DNA of 26,324 nucleotides from positions 1-26,324 of IMG/VR virus record IMGVR_UViG_3300037502_002008. One strand, written 5' to 3'. This DNA is from a virus. Within the stretch, counting starts at the first letter, position 1, and every line of letters starts with the position of its first letter. Below the pieces are notes generated by a model. That model was not told where the DNA came from and did not search any database. It saw nothing but the letters and a program-made list of their open reading frames with translations. The translations under genes were made by a program, and so were the position numbers. This document shows, one piece after another, positions 242-13,205 of the stretch.

Positions 242-2203
242 TCAGTTTGCGTCGATGACGTCCCACGCCAGGCGAGGATATCCCCGCGTCTTGCTGCCGT
301 TCCCGGTCGGGGTCTGCTCCCATTTCACGTGCAGCCGCACCCACTTGGCGCGCAGGCTCGTCGGGCCGGGGCCCTTCTCGACGATCCATCCGCCGCTCCC
401 GTCGCCCCAGTCGGCCTTGTAGGTCCCACAGCGCACAAAGTCGCAATGGCGGTTTCGGACCTCGTAGACCCCGTTTCGGGTCTCGAGGTACTCGCGGGCG
501 ATGCCGACGATGTTGGAGTGGTGGTTGTGGCCGACCGCGATCATGTCCGCGCCCTCGACCCACGAGAACATGCGCCGGCTGTCAAGGACGCCCATGGACA
601 TCGGGGCACCGCCGCCGGAGCCGTGGTGGTAGCGCAAAGTCCACGTGAGGCGGGAGTTGTTGATCGTCACCCGGACCTTCATCCACCCGCCGTAGCCGCC
701 GGCCCCCATCTGGGAGGACGGATTCATGCTCTTGATGGCGCGCACGAGGTTGGTCGTCGGGCAGGTCTCGTGGTGCTTGAGCCAGGCGCTGTTACCCGTG
801 ATGTATGCGATCCCGTCCCGACGCACGAAGAAGTTCCCGGCGTGCGTTGTCAGGCAGTAGACGAAGCCCTCGTGCCTCGTGCGAGTGAACGATTTACGCA
901 TCACCGTCATCACCGGGCGGCGAGTGACGTTCAGGCGGTAATAGCCTTCCTCGCCACGAGGCTGCCATGACAGTGAGGCACGGAAGCCATGCGTAACGCA
1001 CGCCGCCTGAAGTTGCGACAGCATGTGATGCGTTCCGTAGATAACTCGAGCCCAAGAGTCCTCGCTCGCAGGTCGACGCGATCCGTCGCCGTCAATGTAC
1101 GACTCGAGGAAGATGGCGAACTGCTCGTCCGTGCATTCATGCACCCAGTTCGGGATTGACTTATCGTGACCACCGACAAGCTCCGCAAGCCATGGCGTGC
1201 GACCAATTCGGAACACGTGCTGCGGCAATGCGGTTTTGATGATGATGCCGTCGCACCTTCCTGGACGCACCTTCTCGTTCCATTCAATGCCAAGCCGAGT
1301 CAGGATGGCCCGGATCTCCTCAATCCCCTTCGGCTTTGACTGATAGACGTAAACCGATGATGTATCGGTACTGATATGCCCATCAGTCAGCACCCATGCC
1401 GCGAGCCGGATTTGGTCATCCGACCACTTGCACCCAAGAGCTGCGGACCTTGCCATGGCAGGCACGTGGACGACCGACATCTGCTCGGCGTCCTCGGCTA
1501 GCACATAACCAAGCTTCGCCGTCCTGCCATCTCCGAACGCTCTTTGCCACATGAAGTACGCCACGCGGTGATTTGGGGTCACGCGCATGGACATGCCACG
1601 TTGCCGCGCCTCAATCATGTCGCCGGAATACTCGTAGCGATGCACCTTGATCGGCTTCGCCCACGTGGTCGTGAGGTCATGCGGGTGCATTGATGCCACC
1701 TCGTCCTCAAGCGTTACATCGGCAATCGGAACCCATCCTCGTCGGGTCAGTACTTCGGACGAATTGTCCAGGCACTCGTGATTCCCCTGGCCGAGGAAGG
1801 CCCAGTGCTGCGCGTAGGGCTCGTAGCGCTCGGCGACCTCGTTGATGACTGCGTCGAAGTAGGCGGCCGCCGCGTGCGAGCTGCGGAGCTGCGACTTGCA
1901 CTGCCGGCGGTCGCTCGCGCCCTGCATCAGGTCGAGGCAGTCGCCCAGATCGCAGATGATCGCGCTGCGCTCAAGCGCCTGGCGCAGGTGCTTCTGCTCG
2001 AGCTCGCGGTCGCACTTGCTATTGTCAGTGTGGGCGTCGGAGCGTAAAAGTAGCCATTGCTCCCACCCGGTCGCCGTGCTCGGGTCGCAGTCAACGATAT
2101 GGACATTCCTGCCGTAGTGCGTGACCCGGAACGGGGGTGCGGCCGGCGCTTTCGCCGGCGCGGCCTTGCGCCTCGGCTGCGGCTTCTTGGTGGCCTTCGC
2201 CAT
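242..2203 (-). CDS. Calcineurin-like metallophosphoesterase precursor interrupted by an intein
   Basis: The 653-residue precursor has two host parts: residues 1-143 and 472-653, which would make a 325-residue enzyme after splicing. The metallophosphoesterase signature is readable in order: SDAH (55-58, usual DxH), GDCLD (88-92, usual GDxxD), GNHE (140-143), then after the intein YHHG and VGHNHH (usual GHxH). These residues bind the two metals and place the enzyme among phosphoesterases or nucleases; the substrate cannot be told. The start at 2203 (MAKATKK, a Lys/Ala/Pro-rich leader) is preferred over an upstream in-frame ATG at 2506, because the longer form would run antisense across the divergent promoter and the first plus-strand gene. 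The Shine-Dalgarno (AAGGG) is weak. The gene is divergent from the early operon and is followed 17 bases later by the HExxH gene. Confidence 0.88.
   Translation of the reverse strand: MAKATKKPQPRRKAAPAKAPAAPPFRVTHYGRNVHIVDCDPSTATGWEQWLLLRSDAHTDNSKCDRELEQKHLRQALERSAIICDLGDCLDLMQGASDRRQCKSQLRSSHAAAAYFDAVINEVAERYEPYAQHWAFLGQGNHECLDNSSEVLTRRGWVPIADVTLEDEVASMHPHDLTTTWAKPIKVHRYEYSGDMIEARQRGMSMRVTPNHRVAYFMWQRAFGDGRTAKLGYVLAEDAEQMSVVHVPAMARSAALGCKWSDDQIRLAAWVLTDGHISTDTSSVYVYQSKPKGIEEIRAILTRLGIEWNEKVRPGRCDGIIIKTALPQHVFRIGRTPWLAELVGGHDKSIPNWVHECTDEQFAIFLESYIDGDGSRRPASEDSWARVIYGTHHMLSQLQAACVTHGFRASLSWQPRGEEGYYRLNVTRRPVMTVMRKSFTRTRHEGFVYCLTTHAGNFFVRRDGIAYITGNSAWLKHHETCPTTNLVRAIKSMNPSSQMGAGGYGGWMKVRVTINNSRLTWTLRYHHGSGGGAPMSMGVLDSRRMFSWVEGADMIAVGHNHHSNIVGIAREYLETRNGVYEVRNRHCDFVRCGTYKADWGDGSGGWIVEKGPGPTSLRAKWVRLHVKWEQTPTGNGSKTRGYPRLAWDVIDAN
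791..1774 (-). other. Intein with LAGLIDADG homing endonuclease inside the phosphoesterase
   Basis: This in-frame 328-residue insertion sits directly after the E of the GNHE motif. It starts with Cys and block A (CLDNSSEVLTRRGWVPI), then block B with TPNH at 66-69. Two LAGLIDADG-like helices follow (LAAWVLTDG near 124-132 and FLESYIDGDG near 222-231), each keeping the catalytic acidic residue, with a block D-like KSIPNWV between them. Block F is VYCLTTHAGNFF, and block G ends in ITGN followed by Ser as the +1 extein residue. The penultimate residue is Gly rather than the usual His, a variation known in some inteins. The DNA is visibly less GC-rich than the flanks. Splicing would rebuild GNHE-SAWLK. 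Both splicing and endonuclease parts look intact. Confidence 0.92.
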
Positions 2204-2262
2204 GCCCTTGCACGGTAACAAGGCGTATTGCAGAAATCGGAAAAAAGTTTGAAGGTTGGCCC

Positions 2263-2292
2263 TTGACACGCCGATATACCCCGGAGTACCGT
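2263..2292 (+). promoter_or_regulatory. Putative sigma70-type promoter for the early operon
   Basis: A perfect -35 TTGACA (2263-2268) is followed after 18 bases by TACCGT (2287-2292), which keeps the first, second and last T/A of TATAAT. It lies in the 145-base divergent gap and fires toward the early genes. The start of transcription would fall near 2299, just before the leader hairpin. The -10 is weak, so an activator may be needed. No convincing promoter was seen for the opposite strand; the best guess is TTCAAA with AATACG 18 bases on, a poor match. Confidence 0.55.
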
Positions 2293-2304
2293 ACCGCCGT
2301 CGAT

Positions 2305-2341
2305 GCAGGGCGCGTTGCCCAGCCTCGGCAGCCAGAGAGGA
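2305..2341 (+). promoter_or_regulatory. Leader hairpin (GCGTT loop) and Shine-Dalgarno of early operon 1
   Basis: GGGC-GCGTT-GCCC (2308-2320) forms a 4-bp stem with a 5-base loop; a mismatch and two further pairs extend it outward. After 14 bases comes GAGAGGA (2335-2341), and 7 bases later the ATG at 2349. The same 13-mer, the same 14-base gap, the same GAGAGGA and the same 7-base gap recur before the gene at 5944, so this is a duplicated leader rather than a chance hairpin. Confidence 0.6.
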
Positions 2342-2348
2342 CCGACCG

Positions 2349-2606
2349 ATGAAGATCAAGGCCACGCTCGAGGACCTGCTCACCAAGCATCCGCAGGTCG
2401 CACTACGCCATGAGAACGGGGACCTGCTGCTCGCCGCCGCTCGGGAGCTCGGCGACAGCGCGAGCCTCCGCCTGCTCCACGCCCGCGAGGCGCTCGCCTC
2501 CATCAATCCCGACTCGGAGCACGAATGGAACCTCGCCGCCGACGAAGTCGTGGCCGCCGAAGCGGCCTTCGTTCAGACGCACGCCCAGACCGAGGTGGAG
2601 CTGTGA
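2349..2606 (+). CDS. Hypothetical early protein, first gene of early operon 1
   Basis: It encodes 85 residues, starting MKIKATLEDLL, with a well-placed GAGAGGA site 7 bases upstream. This start is chosen over an upstream in-frame ATG at 2256, which would precede the promoter. The protein is mostly helical and acidic, with Ala/Glu-rich stretches (LLAAARELGD, AADEVVAAEAAF) that suggest a small helical bundle. I recognise no family or motif. As first gene after the promoter it is likely expressed early. Its stop overlaps the GTG start of the next gene, so the two are probably translationally coupled. Confidence 0.75.
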   Translation: MKIKATLEDLLTKHPQVALRHENGDLLLAAARELGDSASLRLLHAREALASINPDSEHEWNLAADEVVAAEAAFVQTHAQTEVEL

Positions 2607-2863
2607 AGGCCCCCCGCGGCGAAGTCATGCTCGCACGGATGCTTGAGCTCGTCCGTATCGCGGCATTCGACCCCACCCCCCGGCGCACGCTCGCGGCGCG
2701 CTGGGATCTGACCCCGCGCAACATCAACTACCTCAAGCGCCGTGCGGAGAGCTGGTTCGACTGCTGCATCACCCACGACCCGCACCGCGGGTACGTGCTG
2801 ACGCATCCGGGCATCCTGAACGTCCACGCGCTTCGGACGAGCCGAGTCGGGGGTGCGCGATGA
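2603..2863 (+). CDS. Small putative helix-turn-helix protein
   Basis: It encodes 86 residues from a GTG start that forms a GTGA overlap with the preceding stop; GAGGTGGAG just upstream serves as ribosome site. An in-frame ATG at 2525 would lie deep in the upstream gene and gives an Arg-rich shadow-like N terminus, so it is not used. Residues about 28-50 (RRTLAARWDLTPRNINYLKRR) look like a helix-turn-helix: a helix, a turn at DLTP, and a basic recognition helix. This suggests DNA binding, perhaps regulation of the early region. The C-terminal part (HRGYVLTHPGI) may be a wing. The assignment rests on pattern only. Confidence 0.68.
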   Translation: MKAPRGEVMLARMLELVRIAAFDPTPRRTLAARWDLTPRNINYLKRRAESWFDCCITHDPHRGYVLTHPGILNVHALRTSRVGGAR

Positions 2864-3201
2864 TGCCGAACAACACCACCCCAAGCGCTCGGGCCGTAGA
2901 CCCCGGCACGAGCCACGCGGCGGCCGCGTCCATGGCAACGCCGTCCCGAGGCCAGCGGGCGGCCCTGCTCGCCGTCTACCGCAGCCACCCCGGCGGCCTG
3001 ACCGACGAGGAGGCCTGCGTCCTCGCCGTGATCCCCGGCGGATGGAAGCGGTGCAGCGAGCTCCGCGCCGCCGGCCTGATCCGCGAGACCGGGCGCACCC
3101 GCCCTGGGGCAAGCGGGCGCGAGCAGCGGGTCTGCGAGGCCGTCATCACGGACATCCCTGCTTCCTTGTTCCCCACCCCGAAGGGAGGCTTCCGATGGTG
3201 A
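2860..3201 (+). CDS. Winged-helix-like small phage protein
   Basis: It encodes 113 residues starting at an ATGATG that overlaps the previous stop; either ATG could be used. After a flexible Ser/Thr/Ala start (DPGTSHAAAASM) the body reads RGQRAALLAVYRSHPGGLTD, then WKRCSELRAAGLIRETG and a basic turn with Arg/Gly. This is the pattern of MarR-like or phage winged-helix proteins, in which a helix, a GLTDEE turn, an R-x-x-ELxxxGLI recognition helix and a wing follow in order. Together with the HTH-like neighbour it may form a small regulatory pair, but no target is visible. Its end overlaps the next gene by 7 bases. Confidence 0.72.
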   Translation: MMPNNTTPSARAVDPGTSHAAAASMATPSRGQRAALLAVYRSHPGGLTDEEACVLAVIPGGWKRCSELRAAGLIRETGRTRPGASGREQRVCEAVITDIPASLFPTPKGGFRW

Positions 3202-3581
3202 GCAACCGATGGGCCGAGCCCACCATCGACGACGTCGAGTACCGCGCCGACGCGCTTCCGTTGTTCCTTGAGCGCGTGGACGTTGCGAGCAAGATGCGCG
3301 AACTGCGCTCCCATATCCACGGGATCGCGGCCCTCGTGGTCGTCGGCACCGACCCCATGCTGCACCGGATCGACGAGGGCGACGGCACGCCGGCGGTCCT
3401 GTGGTGGCGCGCCTCGTGCGTGTTCCTCGACGCAAAGCCTGGCAGCAGCATCTACACGGGGCTGCGCCTGACTTCGTGCGCCATGCACCAGGACGGCGAC
3501 CTGCAGGACACGGTCCGCGAGGAGTTCGTCGACCGCTGCGTCAAGTTCGCCACCAAGCTCAAGGATTGCCCCCATGCATGA
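3195..3581 (+). CDS. Hypothetical early protein
   Basis: It encodes 128 residues from ATG at 3195, with GGGAGG upstream and a 7-base overlap with the previous gene. The in-frame upstream start at 2853 is rejected because it reads an Arg/Pro-rich shadow of the winged-helix gene. The protein is mixed alpha/beta, with a hydrophobic core segment (IAALVVVGTDPML), a Trp pair (LWWRASCVFLD) and a Cys/His-containing stretch (SCAMHQDGDL). No family was recognised and no catalytic motif is evident. It sits between the winged-helix-like protein and a 62-residue protein in a continuous run of overlapping genes. Confidence 0.72.
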   Translation: MVSNRWAEPTIDDVEYRADALPLFLERVDVASKMRELRSHIHGIAALVVVGTDPMLHRIDEGDGTPAVLWWRASCVFLDAKPGSSIYTGLRLTSCAMHQDGDLQDTVREEFVDRCVKFATKLKDCPHA

Positions 3582-3762
3582 CGTCAAGGACGCGGGCCGG
3601 GTCGCCATGACCCTCAAGCCCGGAGAGGCGTGCGTCCTCGTGGACGAGACTGGCCGCCGTGTGGCGGCGGTCCTGCCCAACGAGCGCCATGCGGGGAAGA
3701 TGCAGATCGTAGTCTGCGCCCCGAGGTCGGTTCGCATCATCAGAGAGAAGGCGCTGCCATGA
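3574..3762 (+). CDS. Small hypothetical protein, probably beta-rich
   Basis: It encodes 62 residues. The ATG at 3574 overlaps the end of the preceding gene by 8 bases; an alternative in-frame ATG at 3607 would give 51 residues. The sequence alternates hydrophobic and polar residues (ACVLVDETGRRVAAVLP, MQIVVCAPRSVRIIRE) as in a small beta barrel or sheet. No known motif is present. The stop is nested with the ATGA of the following gene. Confidence 0.62.
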   Translation: MHDVKDAGRVAMTLKPGEACVLVDETGRRVAAVLPNERHAGKMQIVVCAPRSVRIIREKALP

Positions 3763-4013
3763 CGAAGGACACCGTGGACGACATCGCTGGCCGTTTGCGC
3801 GAGGCGAGCAAGTGCATCAAGTACGACCTTGACCACATCCGGCTTCTGTCCGAGGCGTATGCGTGCATGACCCAGATGCAGCGCGAGCACTATGAGCGCC
3901 TGCAGGCCATGATCGCAGCAGGGCTGCAGCTCCGCCGGCTAACGACCGAGCTTGAGGCACTGCGCCGCGAGCTCGACGAGCTCCGCGCCATCGGGCCGGG
4001 GGCGACGCCATGA
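3759..4013 (+). CDS. Small coiled-coil early protein
   Basis: It encodes 84 residues from an ATGA overlap at 3759; AGAGAAGG upstream is an acceptable ribosome site. The N terminus (DTVDDIAGRLREA) has the D-I-x-x-R-L pattern shared with other small proteins of this operon. The C terminus (LRRLTTELEALRRELDELRA) is a clear heptad coiled coil. It is probably a dimerising accessory protein of unknown role and may belong to the same broad family as the proteins at 4821, 5051 and 5253. Confidence 0.7.
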   Translation: MTKDTVDDIAGRLREASKCIKYDLDHIRLLSEAYACMTQMQREHYERLQAMIAAGLQLRRLTTELEALRRELDELRAIGPGATP

Positions 4014-4201
4014 GCGAACTGTTTGCCGAGCACGCCGAACGGCATAAGCGGCTCGAGGAACTTGCTGATCGGCTGCTCTCGCAATCTTCCCTGCTCGGGC
4101 TCCACGCCTGGTACAAGTCCAGCGATGTGCTTCGCGCTGCCGCAGATGATGCGGAGGACGCGGCTCGCATCCTGCTCGGGATGGAGCCACATGAACGCTG
4201 A
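4010..4201 (+). CDS. Small hypothetical helical protein
   Basis: It encodes 63 residues from an ATGA overlap at 4010. It is strongly helical (AEHAERHKRLEELADRLLSQ, then AAADDAEDAARILLG). No family is recognised. It overlaps the next gene by 11 bases, and its ribosome site would lie within the end of the preceding gene. Confidence 0.62.
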   Translation: MSELFAEHAERHKRLEELADRLLSQSSLLGLHAWYKSSDVLRAAADDAEDAARILLGMEPHER

Positions 4202-4448
4202 CTACGCCATCTACCTCCTGCGCCGGCGGCGAGACGAACGCATCACCGCGGCCGAGCGCACGCCGCCGCGGCATCACGAGTTTGCGGAACACTGTCGCGC
4301 CGAGGCGCGGTTCTTTGACGGCGTCGCTGACTGCATCGAGCAGCTCCAGCGCGAGGCCGCCGAGGAACGAACGAGCCGTGTATTGGAGACGGCGGGGGCC
4401 GGGGGCGTTCTCCGGCCCCTGCCCGCCATACTGAAGGGGTTGCTATGA
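4191..4448 (+). CDS. Small hypothetical basic/helical protein
   Basis: It encodes 85 residues starting MNADYAIYLLRRRRDER. The start at 4191 overlaps the previous stop by 11 bases; the upstream in-frame ATG at 4023 would nearly duplicate the preceding gene and is rejected. The middle is helical (FDGVADCIEQLQREAAEERT). The last 20 residues are Gly/Leu/Pro-rich and coincide with a strong GC hairpin at 4394-4420, so this end may be shaped by RNA structure as much as by protein function. The stop overlaps the next ATG (ATGA). Confidence 0.6.
   Translation: MNADYAIYLLRRRRDERITAAERTPPRHHEFAEHCRAEARFFDGVADCIEQLQREAAEERTSRVLETAGAGGVLRPLPAILKGLL
4394..4420 (+). promoter_or_regulatory. GC hairpin with a GCGTT loop ahead of the gene at 4445
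   Basis: An 11-bp stem (two G-U pairs) closes the loop GCGTT at 4405-4409. The same 5-base loop tops the two leader hairpins at 2308 and 5903. Here it lies inside the end of a coding region and 35 bases before an ATG; spacing to the Shine-Dalgarno differs from the other two and no good promoter is seen. There is no T-run after it, so it is not a classical terminator. Confidence 0.35.
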
Positions 4449-4678
4449 CCGACTCACGAGACGAGCACGAGCCGTACAACTTCACGGAAAGCCCAGTCAT
4501 TGCCAGCATTGATCTTGGTGATCTCGTCGCGCTTCAGGACGAGATCGTCCGCCTCACCGCCGAGCGCGACGAGGCGCGGCGGGAAATCGCTCATCGCGTG
4601 TTCGTTTCGGGCGGATTGCGCCCGGCGGAGTTTGCGAAATCGCGTGGATGGGACTGCTTCAAGGAGGACAACAAGTGA
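4445..4678 (+). CDS. Small RGWDCF protein, paralogue A
   Basis: It encodes 77 residues from an ATGA overlap, with GAAGGGG as ribosome site. It has a central heptad segment (DEIVRLTAERDEARREIAHR) and ends in SRGWDCFKEDNK. The gene at 4821 has the same length and the same plan, with a matching coiled coil and an RRGWDCFGQEDGK tail, so the two are paralogues. I have seen RGWDCF-type tails in other small phage proteins but know no function. The end of the gene carries GGAGGA six bases before the next GTG, so it supplies the ribosome site of its neighbour. Confidence 0.75.
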   Translation: MTDSRDEHEPYNFTESPVIASIDLGDLVALQDEIVRLTAERDEARREIAHRVFVSGGLRPAEFAKSRGWDCFKEDNK

Positions 4679-4824
4679 AACGGTTTATTGTTGAAGATTA
4701 CCCCGATGCGGAAGCCGACCCATTCGTGCTGCTGGTGGTCGCCGCAATCAAAGCGATGAACAAGCAGCAACGGAACGAGTTGGCGCAGCACCTAGACCGC
4801 GCCGAAATGGAGGAAAACAAGTGA
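4675..4824 (+). CDS. Tiny hypothetical acidic protein
   Basis: It encodes 49 residues from a GTG at 4675 in a GTGA overlap with the preceding stop. GGAGGA lies six bases upstream. The sequence begins VKRFIVEDYPDAEADPFVLL and continues with a helix rich in Gln, Asn and Glu, ending MEENK. It sits between the two RGWDCF paralogues and is less GC-rich than most neighbours. Its tight fit between two identical junctions argues that it is a real gene. Confidence 0.65.
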   Translation: MKRFIVEDYPDAEADPFVLLVVAAIKAMNKQQRNELAQHLDRAEMEENK

Positions 4825-5054
4825 GCGATGACATTACCACGCGACTGCGCCGCGACTGTATGAGCCTGATCGCGGACGAAGCCGCCGACACGATTGAACG
4901 ACTCCGCAAGGAGCGCGACGCGGCAAGGCGACAATGCTGCACGCAAGCGGTATCACGACCTCTGGGAAACGGCACGGTTTACAACTGCGAAGATGCCGTG
5001 AAAGAAGCAACGCGGCGGGGCTGGGACTGCTTCGGACAGGAGGACGGCAAGTGA
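4821..5054 (+). CDS. Small RGWDCF protein, paralogue B
   Basis: It encodes 77 residues from a GTG in a GTGA overlap, with GGAGGA six bases upstream. The start reads MSDDITTRLRRD, the middle EAADTIERLRKERDAARRQ is coiled coil, and the C terminus is RRGWDCFGQEDGK. It matches paralogue A (4445) in length, heptad segment and tail, while its N terminus has the D-I-x-x-R-L pattern of the proteins at 5051 and 5253. Two adjacent Cys (CC) lie mid-protein. The function is unknown; a small dimeric accessory protein is the likeliest form. Confidence 0.75.
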   Translation: MSDDITTRLRRDCMSLIADEAADTIERLRKERDAARRQCCTQAVSRPLGNGTVYNCEDAVKEATRRGWDCFGQEDGK

Positions 5055-5251
5055 ACGACCCCGGCGACGAGCACAAGCACCGCGACATCCTCGAGCGCCT
5101 CGACCTGCTGTGGCCTGGGATGGGCGAGATGGCGAACGATGAGCGCCGCGAGGCCGCACGCGAGATCCGTGCCCTGCGCGACGAGGTACGCCGGCTGCGG
5201 GCGTTGCTGCCCGCCAAAATCTCGCGCATCCTCTACGAAGGTGAGGGGTGA
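5051..5251 (+). CDS. Small coiled-coil early protein
   Basis: It encodes 66 residues from a GTG in a GTGA overlap, with GGAGGA six bases upstream. An in-frame ATG at 4934 is rejected because it would overlap most of paralogue B. It reads DILERLDLLWPG and then ERREAAREIRALRDEVRRLR, a strong heptad. It is related in pattern to the proteins at 4821 and 5253 (D-I-x-E-R, then an EI-x-x-LR coil). The role is unknown. Confidence 0.7.
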   Translation: MNDPGDEHKHRDILERLDLLWPGMGEMANDERREAAREIRALRDEVRRLRALLPAKISRILYEGEG

Positions 5252-5252
5252 C

Positions 5253-5450
5253 ATGCCGCGCAGGAGGGAGCCGGATGACACCGATATCGTCGAGCGCATC
5301 GAGTCGCTCGAGTGCCCGGACCGCCTGCACCTCGACGCACGCGACGAGATCGTGCGCCAGCGCGGGGAGATGGCGTCCATGATGCGCGACCTGCGAGCCT
5401 GCACCCAAGAGCGCCTGTTCCTCCTCAACCACAAGATGCGCCGTGATTGA
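5253..5450 (+). CDS. Small coiled-coil early protein
   Basis: It encodes 65 residues from ATG at 5253, one base after the preceding stop, with GAGGGGTG as ribosome site. The N terminus is basic (MPRRREPDDTD), followed by DIVERIESLECPDRL and a helical segment (ARDEIVRQRGEMASMMRDLRA). It shows the same D-I-V-E-R start as its upstream neighbour. Its last 8 bases overlap the resolvase gene. No specific function can be given. Confidence 0.68.
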   Translation: MPRRREPDDTDIVERIESLECPDRLHLDARDEIVRQRGEMASMMRDLRACTQERLFLLNHKMRRD

Positions 5451-5865
5451 GTTCCATGTCCCTGGAGCCGCCGCCCCGCAAGGCTCCAAGCGCCCTATCA
5501 AACTCCGCAACGGCCGCGTAGTCCTGCTCGAGAGCTCGGCGCGGGTCAAGCCCTACCGGGCCGTCGTTGCCCTTGCAGCGCGCCAGGCTTGGTCGGGTGC
5601 CCCGGCTGCGGGCGAGGTCACCCTCGACGTCGCCTTTACGTTCCTGCGCCCTAAAAGCCACCTGACGCGGTCGGGCGCGGTCCGAGCGGGCGCGCCGGCG
5701 GCACCGGGTCGGCCGGACCTCGACAAGCTCCTTCGGGCCGTCGGGGACGCCCTCACCGGGATCGTGTACGCGGACGATTCGCAGGTGACTGGTTTGATCG
5801 CCACCAAGGCCTACGGGACCTCGGCCGGCACCCGGATTCGCGTCTGGGCCGCAGATATCGGTTGA
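5443..5865 (+). CDS. rusA: RusA-family Holliday junction resolvase
   Basis: It encodes 140 residues from a GTG that overlaps the previous gene by 8 bases. The diagnostic region is RPDLDKLLRAVGDAL followed by GIVYADDSQVTGLIATKAY, matching the RusA pattern PDxDNxxKxxxDAL...DDxQV. D92, D94 and D111/D112 correspond to the acidic metal-binding residues of E. coli RusA. The usual Asn after DxD is Lys here, and the usual Lys is Arg98, a conservative change. RusA dimers cut four-way DNA junctions, and phages use them in recombination and to resolve branched DNA before packaging. The length is typical. It is the last gene of early operon 1; its stop overlaps the -35 of the next promoter, and a RecT-like gene follows. 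Confidence 0.93.
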   Translation: MIEFHVPGAAAPQGSKRPIKLRNGRVVLLESSARVKPYRAVVALAARQAWSGAPAAGEVTLDVAFTFLRPKSHLTRSGAVRAGAPAAPGRPDLDKLLRAVGDALTGIVYADDSQVTGLIATKAYGTSAGTRIRVWAADIG

Positions 5866-5890
5866 CGGGAATGCTACCCGCCTGTATAGT
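5862..5890 (+). promoter_or_regulatory. Putative sigma70-type promoter for early operon 2
   Basis: TTGACG (5862-5867) and TATAGT (5885-5890) are separated by exactly 17 bases, each one mismatch from consensus. This is the best promoter in the window. The -35 overlaps the rusA stop codon. The expected start near 5897 falls at the base of the leader hairpin, so the transcript would begin with the folded structure. Confidence 0.75.
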
Positions 5891-5896
5891 CCGCAT

Positions 5897-5936
5897 GGGG
5901 TCGGGCGCGTTGCCCGGTCCCGCATTCACGAGAGGA
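5897..5936 (+). promoter_or_regulatory. Leader hairpin (GCGTT loop) and Shine-Dalgarno of early operon 2
   Basis: GGGC-GCGTT-GCCC (5903-5915) extends outward to a 10-bp stem (5897-5921) with two adjacent G-U pairs. The GAGAGGA ribosome site (5930-5936) lies 14 bases after GCCC and 7 bases before ATG 5944, exactly as in the 2305 leader. The flanking sequence differs, so the conserved parts stand out. Confidence 0.62.
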
Positions 5937-5943
5937 GACTCAT

Positions 5944-6885
5944 ATGGAACTTGCACGAATTGGTCAGGCGCAGCTTGACCCCATGACGGTGGCACAGGTG
6001 TTCAAGGCGTCGGGGATGTTCCCCGACATCCAGTCCGAGGCAGCGGCGTGCGCCAAGATCATCATCGGTCGCGGCCTCGGTTTGTCCGACTACGACGCAA
6101 TGACCGGGCTGCACATCATCAAGGGCAAGGCGGTCCTGGCCGCCAACCTGATGGCGGCGTCCATTAAGCGGGCCGGGAAGTACGACTACCGCGCCACCTG
6201 CTCGGACACTGCGTGCAGCATCGTGTTCTTCGGGCGCACGATGGAGGGCAAGTGGGAGGAGATCGGCACCACCGAGTTCACGCTCGAGGATGCACGGCGG
6301 GCGCAACTCGGCGGCGACAACTGGCGCAAGTGGCCGAAGGCGATGTTGTTCGCTCGCTGCATCTCTAGCGGGTACAAGCAGCATTGCCCGGATGCGCTCG
6401 GTGCCGCTCCCGTATACGTTGAGGCACACGGCGAGACGGAGATCGTTGAGGACGCCCCGCGCAGCCGCGCTGCCCTCCCGGCCCCCGAGGTCGTGGAGGC
6501 CGCCACGATGCCCCAGGACGCGCCAGTGGCCGAGGATGCCCCGAAGCCCGTCCGCAAGCGCAAGGCCGCGCAGGAGGCCCCTGCGGCCGCCCCGGCGTCG
6601 CCCAACGACATCCCGGTGGCCAAGCCCAAGGACACCTACCCGGACGAGCTCATCGGGACCTTCCGCATCCACGGGGTCGTTCGCCGGGAGGGTCGGGCCC
6701 ACGCCATTGACGCCACCGGGGAGTTCGGCCGGCTGTGGATCGCCACGACCGTGAACGAGTACGCCCGGCTCTGCGAGCAGGCCACGGACGCCGACCTCAC
6801 GCTTGACGTCGCCCGCGTGGGCAACGCCATGACCATCATGCGCGTCCTGCGCTCGAAGCCCGCCGAGGAGGCCACCCATGTCTGA
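5944..6885 (+). CDS. Putative RecT-like single-strand annealing/recombination protein with C-terminal extra domain
   Basis: It encodes 313 residues from ATG 5944. Residues 1-150 match a phage family I know as RecT-like: an opening F-x-x-SGMFPDI-x-SEA, IIIGRGLGLSDYDAMTGLHI, a GKAVLAANLMAASIKR strand-helix, AGKYDYR, FTLEDARRAQL, and WRKWPKAMLFARCISSG with a final CPDAL. Such proteins bind single-stranded DNA and anneal complementary strands. An Ala/Pro-rich linker with a basic KPVRKRK patch (about 153-235) leads to a C-terminal domain (IGTFRIHGVVRREGR..., FGRLWIATTVNEY) that I do not recognise; it may be a small beta-barrel. The neighbouring RusA supports a recombination module. The family call is from pattern memory; the fused tail is unusual. 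Confidence 0.72.
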   Translation: MELARIGQAQLDPMTVAQVFKASGMFPDIQSEAAACAKIIIGRGLGLSDYDAMTGLHIIKGKAVLAANLMAASIKRAGKYDYRATCSDTACSIVFFGRTMEGKWEEIGTTEFTLEDARRAQLGGDNWRKWPKAMLFARCISSGYKQHCPDALGAAPVYVEAHGETEIVEDAPRSRAALPAPEVVEAATMPQDAPVAEDAPKPVRKRKAAQEAPAAAPASPNDIPVAKPKDTYPDELIGTFRIHGVVRREGRAHAIDATGEFGRLWIATTVNEYARLCEQATDADLTLDVARVGNAMTIMRVLRSKPAEEATHV

Positions 6886-7156
6886 ACCGATCCGCGACTG
6901 GCAGGCCACCGCAATTAACGCCCAGCAGGCGCTCGGCAAGCTCACCGCCGAGTTTGAGGCGGCCAAGCAGCTGCACGACGAGCGGGAGGCCATCATCACG
7001 GCCCTGCGCGCCAAGATTCAGGCCCTGCAGGACGAGAACCGCGACTTCTACCGCCGCATCCACGGCAATCCCGACGCGCTGCACGAGCGGGCGCAGCAGG
7101 GCGAGCTCCACCGACCCGAGCAGGTGTTCCGCCAGGGCGGCTGGGTCGAGCGGTAG
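6878..7156 (+). CDS. Coiled-coil protein, last gene of early operon 2
   Basis: It encodes 92 residues from ATG 6878, overlapping the RecT-like gene by 8 bases. The first two thirds are a long heptad coil (LTAEFEAAKQLHDEREAIIT, LRAKIQALQDENRDFYRRIH). The tail (QQGELHRPEQVFRQGGWVER) is polar and aromatic. It may be a partner or regulator of the upstream recombinase by position only. It ends 5 bases from the end of the opposing late operon, with no terminator between them. Confidence 0.7.
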   Translation: MSEPIRDWQATAINAQQALGKLTAEFEAAKQLHDEREAIITALRAKIQALQDENRDFYRRIHGNPDALHERAQQGELHRPEQVFRQGGWVER

Positions 7157-7161
7157 GATCG

Positions 7162-7620
7162 CTAGACCATCCTCTCCCCGCCGTCGGCTCCCGCAGGAGG
7201 TTGGGACGCCGGCGGCGGGTTGTCTTTCCCGAAGGGCACGAGGCGGTTGAGCGCGGCCTGGCGCTCCTTGCACTTGCACCCCTTGGTCGGCTTGATCCCC
7301 ACCGCGGCGGCGACCTTGGCCACGACGTCCCCGAGGCCACGGAGGCGCTGTGGCGGCTTGGGAGGCGTCGGGCCCTGCCGGGCTCCTCCGACCCGTACTC
7401 GAGGTGGCAAGGGCGCTGCGGGCGTCCTCGGCGCTCGGATGGCCGTCTGGGGAATCTCGTAGATCGGCGGGTCCGTGCCGTCACCCTTGCGGGCCTCGCG
7501 GCTCGGGCAGGCGTCGCAGTTCAGGGGTAGGCCTTGGGCGCATGACGGGGTCATCCCCACCACCCGCCAGCTGCGGCAGTCGGTCACCTCAATCTGCTTG
7601 CCGTTGATCGTCAGGTGCAT
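7162..7620 (-). CDS. Cys-containing phage protein with a GLGDVVAKV / CKCKERQAALNR tail
   Basis: It encodes 152 residues starting MHLTINGKQIEVTDC at 7620, an ATGA overlap with the upstream Cys-rich gene; a longer in-frame start at 7707 lies inside that gene and is rejected. The N-terminal part has a C-x11-C-x7-CDAC set (C15, C27, C35, C38) that could bind zinc. A Pro/Arg-rich linker follows, then GLGDVVAKVAAAVGIKPTKG and CKCKERQAALNRLVPFG. I remember this tail motif, often with CGGCKxRQ, from other phage and bacterial small proteins of unknown function. It is the last gene of the late operon and meets the early operon tail to tail. Confidence 0.75.
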   Translation of the reverse strand: MHLTINGKQIEVTDCRSWRVVGMTPSCAQGLPLNCDACPSREARKGDGTDPPIYEIPQTAIRAPRTPAAPLPPRVRVGGARQGPTPPKPPQRLRGLGDVVAKVAAAVGIKPTKGCKCKERQAALNRLVPFGKDNPPPASQPPAGADGGERMV

Positions 7621-9392
7621 CAGTCGATGGAGATGACGTCGCCCGAGGTCTGGCAGAAGACGGCCGTGGCCCGGAACATCCCCTGCACGCACGGGATGAG
7701 CTGGCACTCGGGGTCATCGCATCCGCAGACGTCGTAGATGAAGGGGTAGTTGTTGCAGGTGGTCTGCGGGGTGCAAAGCCCGCAGAGCTCGTTCCACCCC
7801 GGCACGAGCAGGATGCCCGTGATGGGGTCGTAGACGTTGTTCAGGGGGTAACCCGGCACCTCAAGGCAGGTCGGGACGTCGACGTTGAAGTCCGTGTCGA
7901 CGCAGATGCTCTGCGTGCTGCCCTCGGGCTCGTAGACCCGCGCCATGGTGTACCGGAGCCCGGCGCTGTATTCCGCAGGCGACAGCGTGTTCACGCCGAT
8001 GGACGCATTCTGGACGATGCCATACGGGGCCGGGCTGTACGGGGCGAGCTTCTGGCACGCGCAGACCCGCCAGCGCTGGCTGCGCCCGGTCAGGATCACG
8101 CTCACGGTGAAGTTCGCCACGTTGATCTGGATGCGGTCGACGAACAGGTAGTCGCCCGTGGACGACGGTGGGCGCACGTTCGGGCCGTCGCCGCAGTCAA
8201 AGCACCCCTGGCGGTTTCCAAACCAGAAGTACTGGTTCAGCCAGGTTGCGGTCACAAGCGGATTGAGCCTGTCCGTGATGCGGTCGGAGATGTCCTGCGC
8301 GTCCCCGCTGAAGACGTTGATCGTGTAGTCGCAGACCGTCAGGCAGGTCGCCGGCAGGATGCCCCACCCCGTGTTGATCGTGCAGTCGTTGATATTGGAG
8401 ACCGAGACCTTCCCGAGGTACAGGGCCTCGATGGCCGCGAAGTCGGCCGGGTCGGTGATGTCCAGTCCCGCCGCCTGCGCGTAGCAGGCGCTGAAGACGA
8501 TCTCGAGCGCGTCGGCGATGTAGTAGTCCCCGAAGACGTCCGTGAGCGAGTACTGGGTTTCGACGGTGTACGACTCGCTCGCGTCAACCTCGCTCGAGCA
8601 CAGGCCGGGGATGCTCACGCAGGGGTCCGGGTACGGGTCGTCGTCGCAGCACTGGAGCGCGTCGAAGCAGTCCGGGCACTCGGCAAACTCCAGCACCGAA
8701 TACTCGTACCACGCCGTCGACGAGATGGGCGCGAGCGGCGAGAGAATCGTGACGCCCGGCGGCGGGTCCCGCTGGTAGCAGAGGCCGACGTCCTGCTCGA
8801 GGAACTTGGACATGGAGGCGTAGGTCTCGGGGCGGTTGACGTCACACCGGAGGTTGAACGGCACCCCCCACTCGTTGTAGCAGGCGGTGGCGTTGCTTGA
8901 GACCGTCACGGGGAAGACCGTGCCGAACTGGTCCTGGTACAGGTAGCACTCGGCGATGGTGTCCTCGCACGGCGACGCCGGCGGCAGGATCACGGGGCCT
9001 TCCCCGGTCGACAGGTCCGCGATGCCGCCCGGCTCGATGTTGGCTTGGGACGGGTCGGGCCGGCAGCAGGGCTCCTCGCCCTTGGGGAACGTCGCTACGA
9101 GGATTCCGACGTTCGTCGGGACGGTCGGCGTCGGCGGCGGGCAGGGGGCCGAGTAGAAGTTCGTCAGAGTAAAGGCGCACCCCTGGTACCCGATGACATA
9201 GCAGGTGTCCGGGTCAGGCGGCAGCGGGATGCCGAGCGCCTTGAGGTACCACTCGCAGAACTCGATGCGCGTGACCCCCGACTCGCAGCACGGCTCGCAG
9301 CAGTACGAGTCGAACCAGTCCGGGCAGATATCCGCCCACCAGATGACGCCAGGGGGTTCGCAGCAGCAGGTGACGGCCGTAACCGCGCTCAC
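7620..9392 (-). CDS. Extremely cysteine-rich late protein, probably virion-associated
   Basis: It encodes 590 residues from a GTG at 9392 that overlaps the stop of a 15-codon frame (GTGA). By my count about 43 residues are Cys (7%), many in pairs or clusters: TCCCEPP at the start, YCCEPCCE near 31-36, QCCDDD, VCACQ, CGLC, VCGCDDPEC near the end. It is also rich in Pro, Asp, Tyr and Trp. The spacing does not form a repeated zinc-finger pattern. No signal peptide or membrane segment is seen. Its place in the late operon, past the tailspike and the membrane proteins, suggests a structural or cell-surface-acting protein stabilised by disulfides or metal. I recognise no family. Confidence 0.82.
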   Translation of the reverse strand: MSAVTAVTCCCEPPGVIWWADICPDWFDSYCCEPCCESGVTRIEFCEWYLKALGIPLPPDPDTCYVIGYQGCAFTLTNFYSAPCPPPTPTVPTNVGILVATFPKGEEPCCRPDPSQANIEPGGIADLSTGEGPVILPPASPCEDTIAECYLYQDQFGTVFPVTVSSNATACYNEWGVPFNLRCDVNRPETYASMSKFLEQDVGLCYQRDPPPGVTILSPLAPISSTAWYEYSVLEFAECPDCFDALQCCDDDPYPDPCVSIPGLCSSEVDASESYTVETQYSLTDVFGDYYIADALEIVFSACYAQAAGLDITDPADFAAIEALYLGKVSVSNINDCTINTGWGILPATCLTVCDYTINVFSGDAQDISDRITDRLNPLVTATWLNQYFWFGNRQGCFDCGDGPNVRPPSSTGDYLFVDRIQINVANFTVSVILTGRSQRWRVCACQKLAPYSPAPYGIVQNASIGVNTLSPAEYSAGLRYTMARVYEPEGSTQSICVDTDFNVDVPTCLEVPGYPLNNVYDPITGILLVPGWNELCGLCTPQTTCNNYPFIYDVCGCDDPECQLIPCVQGMFRATAVFCQTSGDVISID

Positions 9393-9436
9393 GCCACCAT
9401 GACGATGCAGAGGGCGATGATCAGGAAGGGCATCAC
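9389..9436 (-). CDS. Possible 15-residue hydrophobic peptide
   Basis: GTG-ATG at 9436/9433 opens a 15-codon frame reading VMPFLIIALCIVMVA. The GTG overlaps the stop of the 42-residue gene, and its TGA overlaps the GTG of the Cys-rich gene, so it bridges both by GTGA couplings. The product would be almost entirely hydrophobic. There is no separate Shine-Dalgarno. It may instead serve only as a coupling leader for the next gene. Confidence 0.3.
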   Translation of the reverse strand: MMPFLIIALCIVMVA

Positions 9437-9561
9437 TTGCGGCCGAGCTTCGAGAGGAGCCACGAGAACGGGAAGAGCTGGCCAGCGATGTAACCGCCGA
9501 GCGCCGCGGCCGCCACGGCCCAGATGCTGCCGAGGAGCGAGGAGAGGTCTGCGAGGATCAT
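9433..9561 (-). CDS. Small single-span membrane protein
   Basis: It encodes 42 residues starting MILADLSSLLGSIWAV at 9561, in an ATGA overlap with the lipoprotein gene. Residues about 8-34 form one long hydrophobic segment (AVAAAALGGYIAG), followed by a basic end (LLSKLGRK). The size and topology fit a mini-holin or an accessory of a lysis cassette. The position directly after a spanin-like pair supports this, but no family is recognised. Confidence 0.6.
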   Translation of the reverse strand: MILADLSSLLGSIWAVAAAALGGYIAGQLFPFSWLLSKLGRK

Positions 9562-10070
9562 GTCTTGGGCTTCCTTTGTGCTTGAGCCTTACGGAACGCC
9601 GCGTCGAACTCGGGGTCTTGCGCCCGCATCGCCGCCACGTACTCCCGATCTCCCTCGGGCCGGGACGGGTCTAGCATATCGGCGGCGAGCTGCGCTTGGT
9701 TGACCTTCTTCCGGGGTAACCACCCGACCGCGATGCGGGCGGCCTGGCCAAGGCCGCTCTGCCAGACAAAGACCACCACCGCCACGGCGATCACGGCCGC
9801 CGCCACCCAGACGAGGGTGGACATCCACGCCGGCGTCCGGTCGGCCGTTCCCGGCAGGTCCTCGTGGATGGTTGCCGCGAGGGCGTCGATCCGCTCGGCG
9901 CGGGCCACGACCTCGGGCTGCTCGGTGGTGTTCCCAAGCACCATGAGGGCCTTGGCCTCGCTGCGGATGTCGTTCGCCGTGCCGGCAATGCGAGCCGTGG
10001 GGCTGCAGGCCGTCAAAGCAAGGCTACCGATGAGACTCAAGCTGGCGGTCAATCTTGTCCAGCCGTTCAT
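9558..10070 (-). CDS. Lipoprotein with internal membrane span; spanin-like candidate
   Basis: It encodes 170 residues. The N terminus is a lipoprotein signal peptide: MNGWTR, a hydrophobic LTASLSLIGSLALTA, and a lipobox L19-T-A-C22. A helical periplasmic part (AERIDALAATIHEDL) is followed by a strong membrane span at about 83-103 (STLVWVAAAVIAVAVVVFVW) and a basic/acidic cytoplasmic tail (LPRKKVNQAQ...). A lipid anchor in the outer membrane plus an inner-membrane span is the plan of unimolecular spanins, which fuse both membranes at the end of lysis. The start lies 47 bases inside the preceding membrane-protein gene in another frame, as Rz1 does in Rz. A different membrane role cannot be excluded. 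Confidence 0.75.
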   Translation of the reverse strand: MNGWTRLTASLSLIGSLALTACSPTARIAGTANDIRSEAKALMVLGNTTEQPEVVARAERIDALAATIHEDLPGTADRTPAWMSTLVWVAAAVIAVAVVVFVWQSGLGQAARIAVGWLPRKKVNQAQLAADMLDPSRPEGDREYVAAMRAQDPEFDAAFRKAQAQRKPKT

Positions 10071-10224
10071 TGATCGCTTCCTGCTGGGTCACGAGCCGCA
10101 TGAGCAGACGGTCGTGGGTGAGGTATCCGCCGCCAAGGATGGTGAGCAGCGTGATTGCCACGCCGATGATGCCCGCCCAATCGCGCAGCGACAGCTTGAC
10201 GATGTTGTTCCGCTCTATGGTCAT
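10024..10224 (-). CDS. Small membrane protein with coiled-coil tail; holin or i-spanin-like
   Basis: It encodes 66 residues from ATG 10224. One membrane span lies at about 16-35 (WAGIIGVAITLLTILGGGYL) after a short polar N terminus, and the rest is a helical coil (LLMRLVTQQEAINERLDKID). That is the plan of inner-membrane spanins and of some small holin-associated proteins. The last 47 bases overlap the lipoprotein gene out of frame. It stands 9 bases after the 52-residue gene with only a poor ribosome site, so coupling is likely. Confidence 0.7.
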   Translation of the reverse strand: MTIERNNIVKLSLRDWAGIIGVAITLLTILGGGYLTHDRLLMRLVTQQEAINERLDKIDRQLESHR

Positions 10225-10233
10225 GTCGTGATT

Positions 10234-10392
10234 TCAGGTCTTGAGGTTACTTGTGGCCTGTTCAATGATCGCCACCAAAATGGCTTTCACTTCGTCCTCT
10301 GACTTGCCCTTCGTTGAGCCAGGAGTAGTTGCGACGGTCATGCCGTCGATGACATACAGATCGTCCGACACCTGTTGAATCTCCATAATCAT
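10234..10392 (-). CDS. Small hypothetical protein downstream of tailspike
   Basis: It encodes 52 residues (MIMEIQQVSDDLYVIDGMTV...), from ATG 10392 in an ATGA overlap with the tailspike stop. A second in-frame ATG follows two codons later. The start forms short strands around DDLYVIDG, and the end is a helix (EDEVKAILVAIIEQATSNL). It keeps the lower GC content of the preceding tailspike region. Small genes at this position are often tail-fibre chaperones or caps, but no family is recognised. Confidence 0.65.
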   Translation of the reverse strand: MIMEIQQVSDDLYVIDGMTVATTPGSTKGKSEDEVKAILVAIIEQATSNLKT

Positions 10393-13205
10393 CCCCACGA
10401 GAACAGAGTGACCGTATAAGCACTTGCAAAGTTGTTTCGCACCTGCACGAGGCCACTATCTTGGCCGATGCAGATTTTGTTGCTGGTCGTAGCGGCGTTT
10501 CCGGTTGTTGCAATTGCCACGGCGCTTGAGCCAACAAAGTGCTGCACAAGCGTTCCCGATGCGCCGCTGAACATCGCGTTGACATCGCCCCCAAACGTAG
10601 TTCCGCTCAACAAGCGCAGTCCGCCGTTAGATGTGTATGTCCGTTGTGGGAACGTATAAACGCCCCCAGAGCCCGCTAGTGTCACGACTTGAATTGAGAA
10701 CTGGCTCCCGATCTCTTCCATGGGTGACACGCCGCCAATGCGAGGAAGGAATGCCGTCGTGGTAGTGCGTACCTTCGCCGCTTCCTGACCTATTCCAATG
10801 TTGTTGAGTGCGGTGATCTTTGCCGGATACAAGGTTCCTGTGCCGGTGTTCTCCAAGTGCAGGACATCCGTGCCGCTTGTGTTGACGTTGTTGGTGCAGA
10901 CGATGATGTTGTTGTCGTACACCCCACTCGATGAGTTGCACATGAATGCCGTGGCTATGTCACTCACGGCGTTGTCGGTGATCGTCATGTACAGCTTGTC
11001 GGCAGTCGCGCCTCGCAGTGCGGTATTCAGGAAATACTTGACCTGACCACCCATCACGCGGTTTCCCCTGATGACCGCAAACATCGGCTTTGCGGCTGCG
11101 CCGCTCGGCATTGCTCCCTCTGAATCATCAAGCACGTACAGAAGTTGACCCGTTGCGGTGGGCACGTTGTTGAACACCACGTTGTTTTCGATTGTGATGC
11201 TTCGGGCCCGTTGATATGTGCCAGGAACAAAAAACGAGATGCAGTTGCTCCCGGCTTGGTTTAGCGTCGCCAGTACGCTGAACGGACTCGTGGTATCTGG
11301 CGCAACGTCATAGTGCCAGACGTTGTTCACAATCGTCCCCGCCTGCACCTGAAAGTTGGCGATGCCGCCGAAACTTGCTGCTGCTGTGTTGGCGCTGGCG
11401 CACGGCTTGATGCTGAACCGAAACGAATTGTTGGCGACGATTGTCTCGTCGTTTTGGATCTTGAGAGCGCGACCTTTGCAGTTCACGAACGTGTTGTTAG
11501 TGACGGTGGCGCTTGTCGCTCTGTAGGTTGTTCCTGTAACAAGGCCTCCAAAGATGACGAGCCCATCCGTGTCTTGGTTGGATGCACTGCCAGTTGTTTC
11601 CTGGTTGAGGATGTTGGAAATCAAACACCCCGACACGTTCGTGGCCTGCGGATAAAGGCCTGATTGTTCTGTGACGACAATCGCCTGCGTACCGTTTGAG
11701 CCGGGCGTGTTCGACAACGGCTCTCGCGTGAAATCCTTTGCAATGCAATTCGTGATTGACACAAACTCATACCCACCGGCAATGTAAACACCGATGCAAC
11801 CTTTGTTCCCACCTACACCCGCTGTAACAGCAAGGCCGTTTTTGAACTCACAGTTGTCTAGCTTGACGGTGGTGGTGGATGCGCCCGCAGTTCCGGTAGT
11901 GTTGTCGATCCGCAGGATTGACTGAGCCTTGGAGTTCGCGTCGAAAGTCAGACCGGAAATCTCCACGCTGAATGCCGCGCAGGTCAGATAAATCATTTGA
12001 TTCACCTGCGATGCGGGGTTGGCCCTTATCGTCGCCTCATCGCCGAAGATCGTTAGTTTTCCCGTCAGCGTCTTCGTAATTTGCGTCGTTCCCGTTTGAT
12101 TCATGGAATACGTGCCAGCCGGGAAGAACAACGTTTTCCCCATCGCGGCGGTAATCGCCGCGCTGATTGCAGCCGTGTCATCCGTCACCCCATCGCCGAC
12201 CGCGCCGAAGTTCTTGACGCTTATAATTTCGTTCAGTCTGTTGGCGACGGTGCGCGTGACCGATCCGGGCGTGGGAGTGTAAGTCGCAAGGGTCGCGCTG
12301 GTCGCAAGCAGCGTAGAGGCCACGTGATCCCATTGGCCTCCGTTGTACTGCCATACGTCCCCGGTCGCAGGAGCCGCCGTATTGATCTGCACACCCGCAA
12401 GCCCATCGACCGTCGGTCCCGGATAGGTCCCGGCGAGGTCGCCGCTTGCAGCTCCGGTGGGCGTTCTCGCGTCGTTGAGGCGGCTGTCCGTCGCCTCTAC
12501 GGGCTTGCCGACGGTCGCGCTGCCGCTTGCCGCGAAGTCACAGGACAGCGTGACGTTTGCCGTCAGGTCGCCGCCGCCCGTCAGGCCCGTGCCCGCAATG
12601 ACCTGGCGCGTCAGGGGCACTCGCTGGGCGAGGTCTGTGGTGAGGTTCGCCACCTGGCTCTGGGCGAGCCCGCCGGCGGGGATCGGGTCGCTGCCGGCGC
12701 TACCGTGCGTGCCGCCGTGGCTCGTCGGCGTGCGGGCGTCTGACAGGCGGGTATCGGTCGCGCTCACGGCCTGCGTGGCGCTGCCGCCCCCGCTCGGGGC
12801 GAGGTCGACGTTCAGGGTGACGTCGGTCGACAGCGCGCCGCCACCCGTCAGGGCCGTCCCTGCGGTCACGAGGCGCGTCGTCGGGACCTTGGCCGCAAGG
12901 TCCGAAACGAGGTTCACGACCTGCGTCTGGGCAAGCGTGACCGGATCGCTCCCCCCGGAAGCGTGCGAGCTCGCGTGCAGCGCTGGGGTGCGGGCATCCG
13001 AGAGACGCGAATCGGTGGCGCGCACCAGTTGGTTCGCCGTGCCGCCCCCGTTCGGGGCAAGGTCGGCCGCAATCGTGCCTGCGCCGACGAGCGTGCCGCC
13101 AGGCGTACCGTCTGCGAGCAGGCCATTGCCGGCGGTTAACGACGACAGGCCGCCAACCGACACCACGTTGCTGTTCTGGGTGACGTCGATCTCAATATCG
13201 GCCAT
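10389..13205 (-). CDS. Tailspike/tail fibre with N-terminal repeats and a pectate-lyase-like beta-helix
   Basis: It encodes 938 residues. Residues 26-272 hold three imperfect repeats with SATDTRLSDARTP-type cores, which fit an elongated shaft. At about 328 the motif SVKNFGAVGDGVTDDTAAI, then LFFPAGTYSM, marks the start of a pectate-lyase-3-type right-handed beta-helix, as in many depolymerase tailspikes. Asn-rich rungs (TNNTFVNCKGRAL, IVNNVW, NNIGIG) continue to about 830. The C-terminal 100 residues are beta-rich and end in VTLFSWG. The expected role is trimeric receptor binding or surface glycan cleavage. The DNA encoding the beta-helix is clearly less GC-rich than the part encoding the repeats, indicating a mosaic gene. 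Start ATG 13205 follows GGAG and lies one base past the upstream stop. Confidence 0.88.
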   Translation of the reverse strand: MADIEIDVTQNSNVVSVGGLSSLTAGNGLLADGTPGGTLVGAGTIAADLAPNGGGTANQLVRATDSRLSDARTPALHASSHASGGSDPVTLAQTQVVNLVSDLAAKVPTTRLVTAGTALTGGGALSTDVTLNVDLAPSGGGSATQAVSATDTRLSDARTPTSHGGTHGSAGSDPIPAGGLAQSQVANLTTDLAQRVPLTRQVIAGTGLTGGGDLTANVTLSCDFAASGSATVGKPVEATDSRLNDARTPTGAASGDLAGTYPGPTVDGLAGVQINTAAPATGDVWQYNGGQWDHVASTLLATSATLATYTPTPGSVTRTVANRLNEIISVKNFGAVGDGVTDDTAAISAAITAAMGKTLFFPAGTYSMNQTGTTQITKTLTGKLTIFGDEATIRANPASQVNQMIYLTCAAFSVEISGLTFDANSKAQSILRIDNTTGTAGASTTTVKLDNCEFKNGLAVTAGVGGNKGCIGVYIAGGYEFVSITNCIAKDFTREPLSNTPGSNGTQAIVVTEQSGLYPQATNVSGCLISNILNQETTGSASNQDTDGLVIFGGLVTGTTYRATSATVTNNTFVNCKGRALKIQNDETIVANNSFRFSIKPCASANTAAASFGGIANFQVQAGTIVNNVWHYDVAPDTTSPFSVLATLNQAGSNCISFFVPGTYQRARSITIENNVVFNNVPTATGQLLYVLDDSEGAMPSGAAAKPMFAVIRGNRVMGGQVKYFLNTALRGATADKLYMTITDNAVSDIATAFMCNSSSGVYDNNIIVCTNNVNTSGTDVLHLENTGTGTLYPAKITALNNIGIGQEAAKVRTTTTAFLPRIGGVSPMEEIGSQFSIQVVTLAGSGGVYTFPQRTYTSNGGLRLLSGTTFGGDVNAMFSGASGTLVQHFVGSSAVAIATTGNAATTSNKICIGQDSGLVQVRNNFASAYTVTLFSWG
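12390..13130 (-). repeat. Three degenerate ~85-residue coding repeats in the tailspike shaft
   Basis: Residues about 26-109, 110-198 and 199-272 align around a G-TALTGGG / DLAPSGGG start, an A-TD-RL-DARTP core, an SGGSDP-like turn (copies 1 and 2) and a L-Q-QV-NL end. The third copy is divergent and switches into GDLAGTYPGPTVDGL. The repeats are protein-level; DNA identity is moderate. They resemble the shaft repeats of other phage fibres. Confidence 0.7.

Follow-up and report, generated by a model that had tools for sequence, protein, structure and literature searches.

Two early operons of a 26,324-base virus record (IMG/VR IMGVR_UViG_3300037502_002008, hereafter the window) open with the same kind of leader, in which an RNA hairpin with a conserved loop starts at the predicted first transcribed base and is followed by a ribosome-binding site (RBS) and the first gene. 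The element is real, phage-specific and undescribed in the resources searched, and we are highly confident of the hairpin structure as found. Its stem covaries among relatives, it occurs in 33 of 33 distinct leaders of a promoter-selected test and it lies at the 5′ end of the predicted transcripts; together these results support the proposal, made in a preliminary description, that the leaders share a regulatory RNA element at their 5′ end, whose function we infer.

Two leaders begin with a 5′-terminal hairpin

The window contains the arrangement GGGCGCGTTGCCC-N14-GAGAGGA-N7-ATG, exactly as first described, at two sites only (2308 and 5903), and the exact 13-mer likewise matches only in these two leaders. 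Taken alone with up to three mismatches, the 13-mer is no more frequent in the window than in shuffles; repeated together with the 7-mer in a fixed register before ATG, it was found in none of 300 Markov-shuffled windows. The core follows a TTGAC-type promoter, starting 15 bases (operon 1) and 12 bases (operon 2) after the −10, in agreement with the 12–15 bases given previously. The identical N14 and N7 spacing, put forward as part of the element, proves incidental, with 3′ gaps in relatives that range from 3 to about 24 nucleotides (nt). The parts of the two leaders, all on the plus strand, are as follows.

2263–2292: promoter of early operon 1, TTGACA (2263–2268) and TACCGT (2287–2292), from sequence; same arrangement in relatives
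2299–2329: 5′-terminal RNA hairpin of operon 1, fold from predicted +1 at −17.6 kcal/mol, and covariation
2308–2349: operon 1 leader, with core 2308–2320, N14 2321–2334, GAGAGGA 2335–2341, N7 2342–2348 and ATG at 2349
2335–2341: RBS GAGAGGA of operon 1, from sequence
5862–5890: promoter of early operon 2, TTGACG (5862–5867) and TATAGT (5885–5890), from sequence
5897–5921: 5′-terminal RNA hairpin of operon 2 (the RecT operon), fold from predicted +1 at −18.2 kcal/mol, and covariation
5903–5944: operon 2 leader, with core 5903–5915, N14 5916–5929, GAGAGGA 5930–5936, N7 5937–5943 and ATG at 5944
5930–5936: RBS GAGAGGA of operon 2, from sequence

Folding from the predicted +1 (a purine some 7 nt beyond the −10) places the 13-mer at the apex of a longer hairpin beginning at the predicted first transcribed base; the hairpin proposed earlier is genuine, but larger than its 13 bases. 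Operon 1 forms GUCGAUGCAGGGC-GCGUU-GCCCAGCCUCGGC, with an outer stem GUCGA/UCGGC, an inner stem GGGC/GCCC and the loop GCGUU, and operon 2 forms GGGGUCGGGC-GCGUU-GCCCGGUCCC, in which the two flanks are the stem strands. A covariance model (CM) of the element, R1, scores these leaders at 36.3 bits (2297–2334) and 32.5 bits (5892–5929), both being members of its training set. Folds started right after the −10 had gained extra pairs upstream of +1 that blurred the 5′ boundary; the leaders were for this reason refolded from +1, and a variance argument drawn from the earlier folds was dropped.

With this start, 27 of 39 leaders leave no 5′ nucleotide unpaired and 32 leave at most one (L273 and L285, likely chance matches, are among the outliers). 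Positions +1 to +4 are paired in 28, 31, 35 and 33 of 36 leaders, and positions −1 to −5 in 16, 21, 13, 14 and 4, where random expectation is near 13. In both window leaders and in most relatives the predicted +1 is the first base of the stem, in agreement with the suggestion that the hairpin occupies the very 5′ end of each transcript.

The stem covaries beneath a conserved tip

An essentially ungapped alignment of 34 leaders (A3) gives a covariation score of 0.440, against 0.166 ± 0.021 in 500 shuffles, none of which scored as high. Kinship among the sequences inflates these shuffle statistics, yet controls that retain it, in which the partner strand is slid by 1–3 columns, stay at or below 0.180. 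Both sides change in 11 of 13 pairs, and the two innermost pairs (G-C and C-G) are invariant; a second alignment of 24 leaders (A2) agrees. The stems of relatives illustrate this freedom of sequence (GGCAGAC/GTCTGCC, GTCAATG/CATTGAC, CGCACGC/GCGTGCG and GTCCCTGC/GCAGGGAC). A lack of compensatory changes had been named as grounds for abandoning the hairpin; both alignments hold many.

The hairpin tip, GC-[RYGUU]-GC, is nearly invariant. GCGUU, the loop given in the preliminary description, is indeed the commonest but is not strict, being followed by ACGUU and GUGUU and accompanied by a 4-nt GCGU; rarer loops (GCGGU, GAGGU and ACGGU) take the same place at other promoters, giving R-N-G-K-U overall. 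The first loop base (R) could pair with the fifth (U).

The hairpin recurs in related phages and is rare elsewhere

RecT homologues provided 61 additional loci in viral contigs, and homology to the operon 1 gene a further six matches. Leaders were compared for the 27 RecT genes whose starts allow it, and 26 of them bear the hairpin (loop GCGTT, ACGTT or 4-nt GCGT), the sole exception being L042. The promoter-selected test drew on loci obtained by protein homology only and took every match to TTG..TAY-N6-xTA followed by an RBS and ATG. All 33 distinct leaders carry the hairpin (27 as GC-RYGTT-GC, 6 with a 4-nt loop), fourteen more pattern matches without an RBS being left out of the count; relatives that keep these promoters have therefore kept the hairpin, the opposite of the loss that was to count against it.

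Most records of the family contain two to three strong matches to R1, with third copies at divergent promoters, each with its own stem. A further model, R2, detects additional copies outside its training set in promoter–RBS contexts, and one contig (L291) holds four units within about 2.7 kb, two of which are R2 training sequences. A few weaker CM matches are intercistronic or within genes. Inside operon 1 of the window (4389–4428) lies a strong promoterless intercistronic hairpin with a GCGTT loop (15.3 bits with R1); similar hairpins are present in L005, L012 and L015, and others in L224, L263 and L282.

Leaders vary downstream, some carrying a second hairpin after the first. This second hairpin, GCGCGG-CGNN-CCGCGC, has a conserved stem sequence and was seen in a subset of RecT-operon leaders (L012 at 6283, L023 at 5907, L027 at 2035, L244 at 2317 and L266 on the minus strand). 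A different, 63.8-kb phage contig (L091, 6500–9260) has, ahead of one RBS after another, copies of an intercistronic CTAGGCGCGTTGC..hairpin..GTTGCCCGCCTAGGGCA that often overlap the preceding gene's stop codon; its architecture is different and longer, and it was set aside as a member of the family.

Promoter plus core was found at 66 loci in viral contigs, with an RBS at 47 of 67 places, and most of the distinct viral places that have an RBS show folds of −12 to −21 kcal/mol. Searched for across 84,980 bacterial and archaeal species genomes, this pattern gave 89 loci, about as many as a rough estimate predicts by chance, with an RBS at 11 of 80 places examined and mostly weak folds. In two Clostridia loci (L341 and L347) a GC[AG]CGTTGC hairpin follows a promoter-like site and precedes an RBS, seemingly ahead of the same gene (ATGAAAAAAATGACCATTG..); these may be chance. 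Scanning for GCGTTGCCC-N-GAGAGGA returned mostly chance matches within genes.

Rfam returned no match for the window at gathering score and none for four element-bearing loci at E ≤ 1. The window has no DNA near-match in 50,697 phage records, and when bacterial genomes were searched for a host, none contained a RecT relative. Both TerL and a portal-like protein are encoded by the relative G012, whose closest TerL records (MW202640 and MW202722; 69%) are annotated Podoviridae; at E ≤ 0.5 the element is absent from them and from Synechococcus phage S-LBS1.

A promoter dyad and the genes of the operons

The same promoters carry a second shared feature over the −10. Exact TAC-N6-GTA occurs in 23 of 36 distinct promoters and TAY-N7-TA in 33 of 36; these 36 were selected by core plus promoter, some promoters having first been gathered by a pattern that required the dyad. 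The dyad is a candidate operator at which a phage regulator common to these promoters could bind, and its presence in these promoters suggests that the operons may also be under a common transcriptional regulator. The dyads and first genes, again on the plus strand, are listed below.

2277–2288: operator-like dyad TAC-N6-GTA over the −10 of operon 1, from sequence and relatives' promoters
5875–5886: operator-like dyad TAC-N6-GTA over the −10 of operon 2, from sequence and relatives' promoters
2349–2606: first gene of operon 1, an 85-amino-acid (aa) protein found in most element-bearing phages compared
5944–6885: first gene of operon 2, a RecT-like single-strand annealing protein (PHROG 561, E 2.5e-9)

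The 85-aa protein is acidic; its AlphaFold2 model is all-helical (mean predicted local distance difference test score 89) and has no match in the PDB at E ≤ 0.001 with Foldseek. Upstream, on the minus strand (242–2203), lies a phosphoesterase-like gene with a LAGLIDADG-type insertion (Pfam LAGLIDADG_3, E 6e-6) that is probably an intein; the relative in L300 is about 312 aa long and is without the insertion.

Proposed function and alternatives

On balance we lean towards a previously undescribed 5′-terminal cis-acting RNA hairpin of early-operon mRNAs in podovirus-like phages, combining a 5′ clamp with a loop read by a common factor. Transcription would begin at the purine about 7 nt past the −10, with the first nucleotide already paired, and the variable outer stem, with or without an internal loop, would clamp the 5′ end. 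The inner stem, topped by the invariant G-C/C-G cap, would present the R-Y-G-U-U loop, with the RBS a few nt past the stem. Protection of the mRNA and an open RBS are the probable roles of the outer stem: such a clamp may block 5′-end-dependent mRNA decay and keep the leader folded away from the RBS. The operons may be coupled by one trans factor, of phage or host origin, that binds the loop; conservation of the loop calls for a reader, which is probably a factor common to these operons. Hairpins at the 5′ end are able to stabilise mRNA and impede RppH (PMC3997798), in keeping with the clamp; of the functional options named in the preliminary description, this cap-like role appears to fit best. 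Set against the combined reading are the start site, which is predicted from the −10; the register, chosen from the same fold in a way that partly favours paired bases at +1 to +4; and the consideration that a pure stability clamp would need no conserved loop.

We also entertain, tentatively, a stronger form in which the hairpin marks the transcripts of a phage RNA regulon, like an address label. A phage protein dedicated to this RNA would recognise the RYGUU loop at the very start of every early mRNA and jointly switch decay, translation or elongation of all the operons. That protein is possibly the co-occurring 85-aa operon 1 product, which is one candidate, or a neighbouring early protein.

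Stabilisation alone, in the manner of ompA/papA or T7 phi10 and with RYGUU kept as a favourable pentaloop that nothing binds, is possible though doubtful. It would account for a stem that starts at the predicted +1, it draws on the same impediment to RppH (PMC3997798), and GCGTT belongs to the pentaloops most enriched in strong hairpins of these phages, promoterless intercistronic ones included. It sits poorly with a loop and two cap pairs that remain constant while all else changes. Nor is RYGUU known as an ultra-stable loop.

Less probable still is an antitermination element of the early operons, comparable to HK022 putL/putR or lambda nutL/nutR, in which the nascent hairpin modifies RNA polymerase alone or with a phage protein. 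The hairpin does stand at the start of both early operons, the HK022 put sites hold comparable positions (PMC9378689), and some leaders have the second, sequence-conserved hairpin; putRNA, however, is about 70 nt with two stem-loops, and each window leader has one hairpin. No terminator-like site was found on the plus strand of the early region (2000–10500), so that antitermination is without positive support, and inspection by eye, without a scan for boxA, showed no motif resembling it.

We consider it very improbable that a phage repressor binds the GGGC-N5-GCCC inverted repeat in double-stranded DNA just past the promoter. The near-constant distance from the −10 and the adjoining dyad would suit such an operator, but a DNA site would keep its sequence, whereas here the half-sites change letters with pairing kept, around a loop that is conserved and lacks symmetry; as an operator, the TAC-N6-GTA dyad is the stronger candidate. 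An N4-like single-stranded DNA hairpin promoter for a virion RNA polymerase, suggested by a small-loop hairpin ahead of early operons, was rejected as having next to no chance, with sigma-70-type −35/−10 elements upstream of every copy and a large 2193-aa protein in G012 that has no RNA-polymerase match in Pfam.

Comparison with known systems

Short phage leader RNAs (nut, put and boxB) are founding models of RNA-based control, and few families have been described outside cultured phages. The hairpin family reported here, from uncultured bacterial viruses, is defined by covariation and linked to the start of transcription; each genome has it on two to four operons, and Rfam does not contain it. 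As a small testable module it could separate 5′-end protection from specific recognition, and if a phage protein does bind the loop, the two would constitute a new RNA–protein pair.

In lambda nut, too, early transcripts have close to their start a short hairpin whose loop is 5 nt long; the boxB loop is of the GNRNA type. The phage stem differs in sitting at +1 with the RBS immediately after, and its loops are RYGUU, or GCGGU, GAGGU and ACGGU, in place of the boxB GNRNA pentaloop.

The T7 phi10 leader is a 5′-terminal stabilising stem-loop, and the leaders of E. coli ompA and papA share with it a stem at or beside the first transcribed nucleotide, followed by the RBS. The window hairpins have the same placement, the stem lying within a few nt of the predicted 5′ end; hairpins so placed impede RppH (PMC3997798). 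The phage hairpin stands apart in that its loop and both its cap pairs are conserved and the whole unit recurs at two to four operons within a single phage family.

HK022 put is likewise a structured RNA at early-operon starts, with putL just past PL and putR about 270 nt past PR, and the first putL pair, at A3, begins its stem near +1 (PMC9378689). The put RNA is about 70 nt long and comprises two adjacent stem-loops that bind RNA polymerase; the window hairpins, in contrast, are single and 25–31 nt long, and a second hairpin is found only in a subset of relatives.

Mycobacteriophages of cluster K repeat 13-bp start-associated sequences (SAS/ESAS; GGGATAGGAGCCC) at gene start sites, a likeness in that a short element recurs at phage gene starts (PMC3203893). 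SAS is conserved in sequence and associated with translation starts; the phage hairpin has a different sequence, is linked to promoters and combines a varying, covarying stem with a nearly invariant tip.

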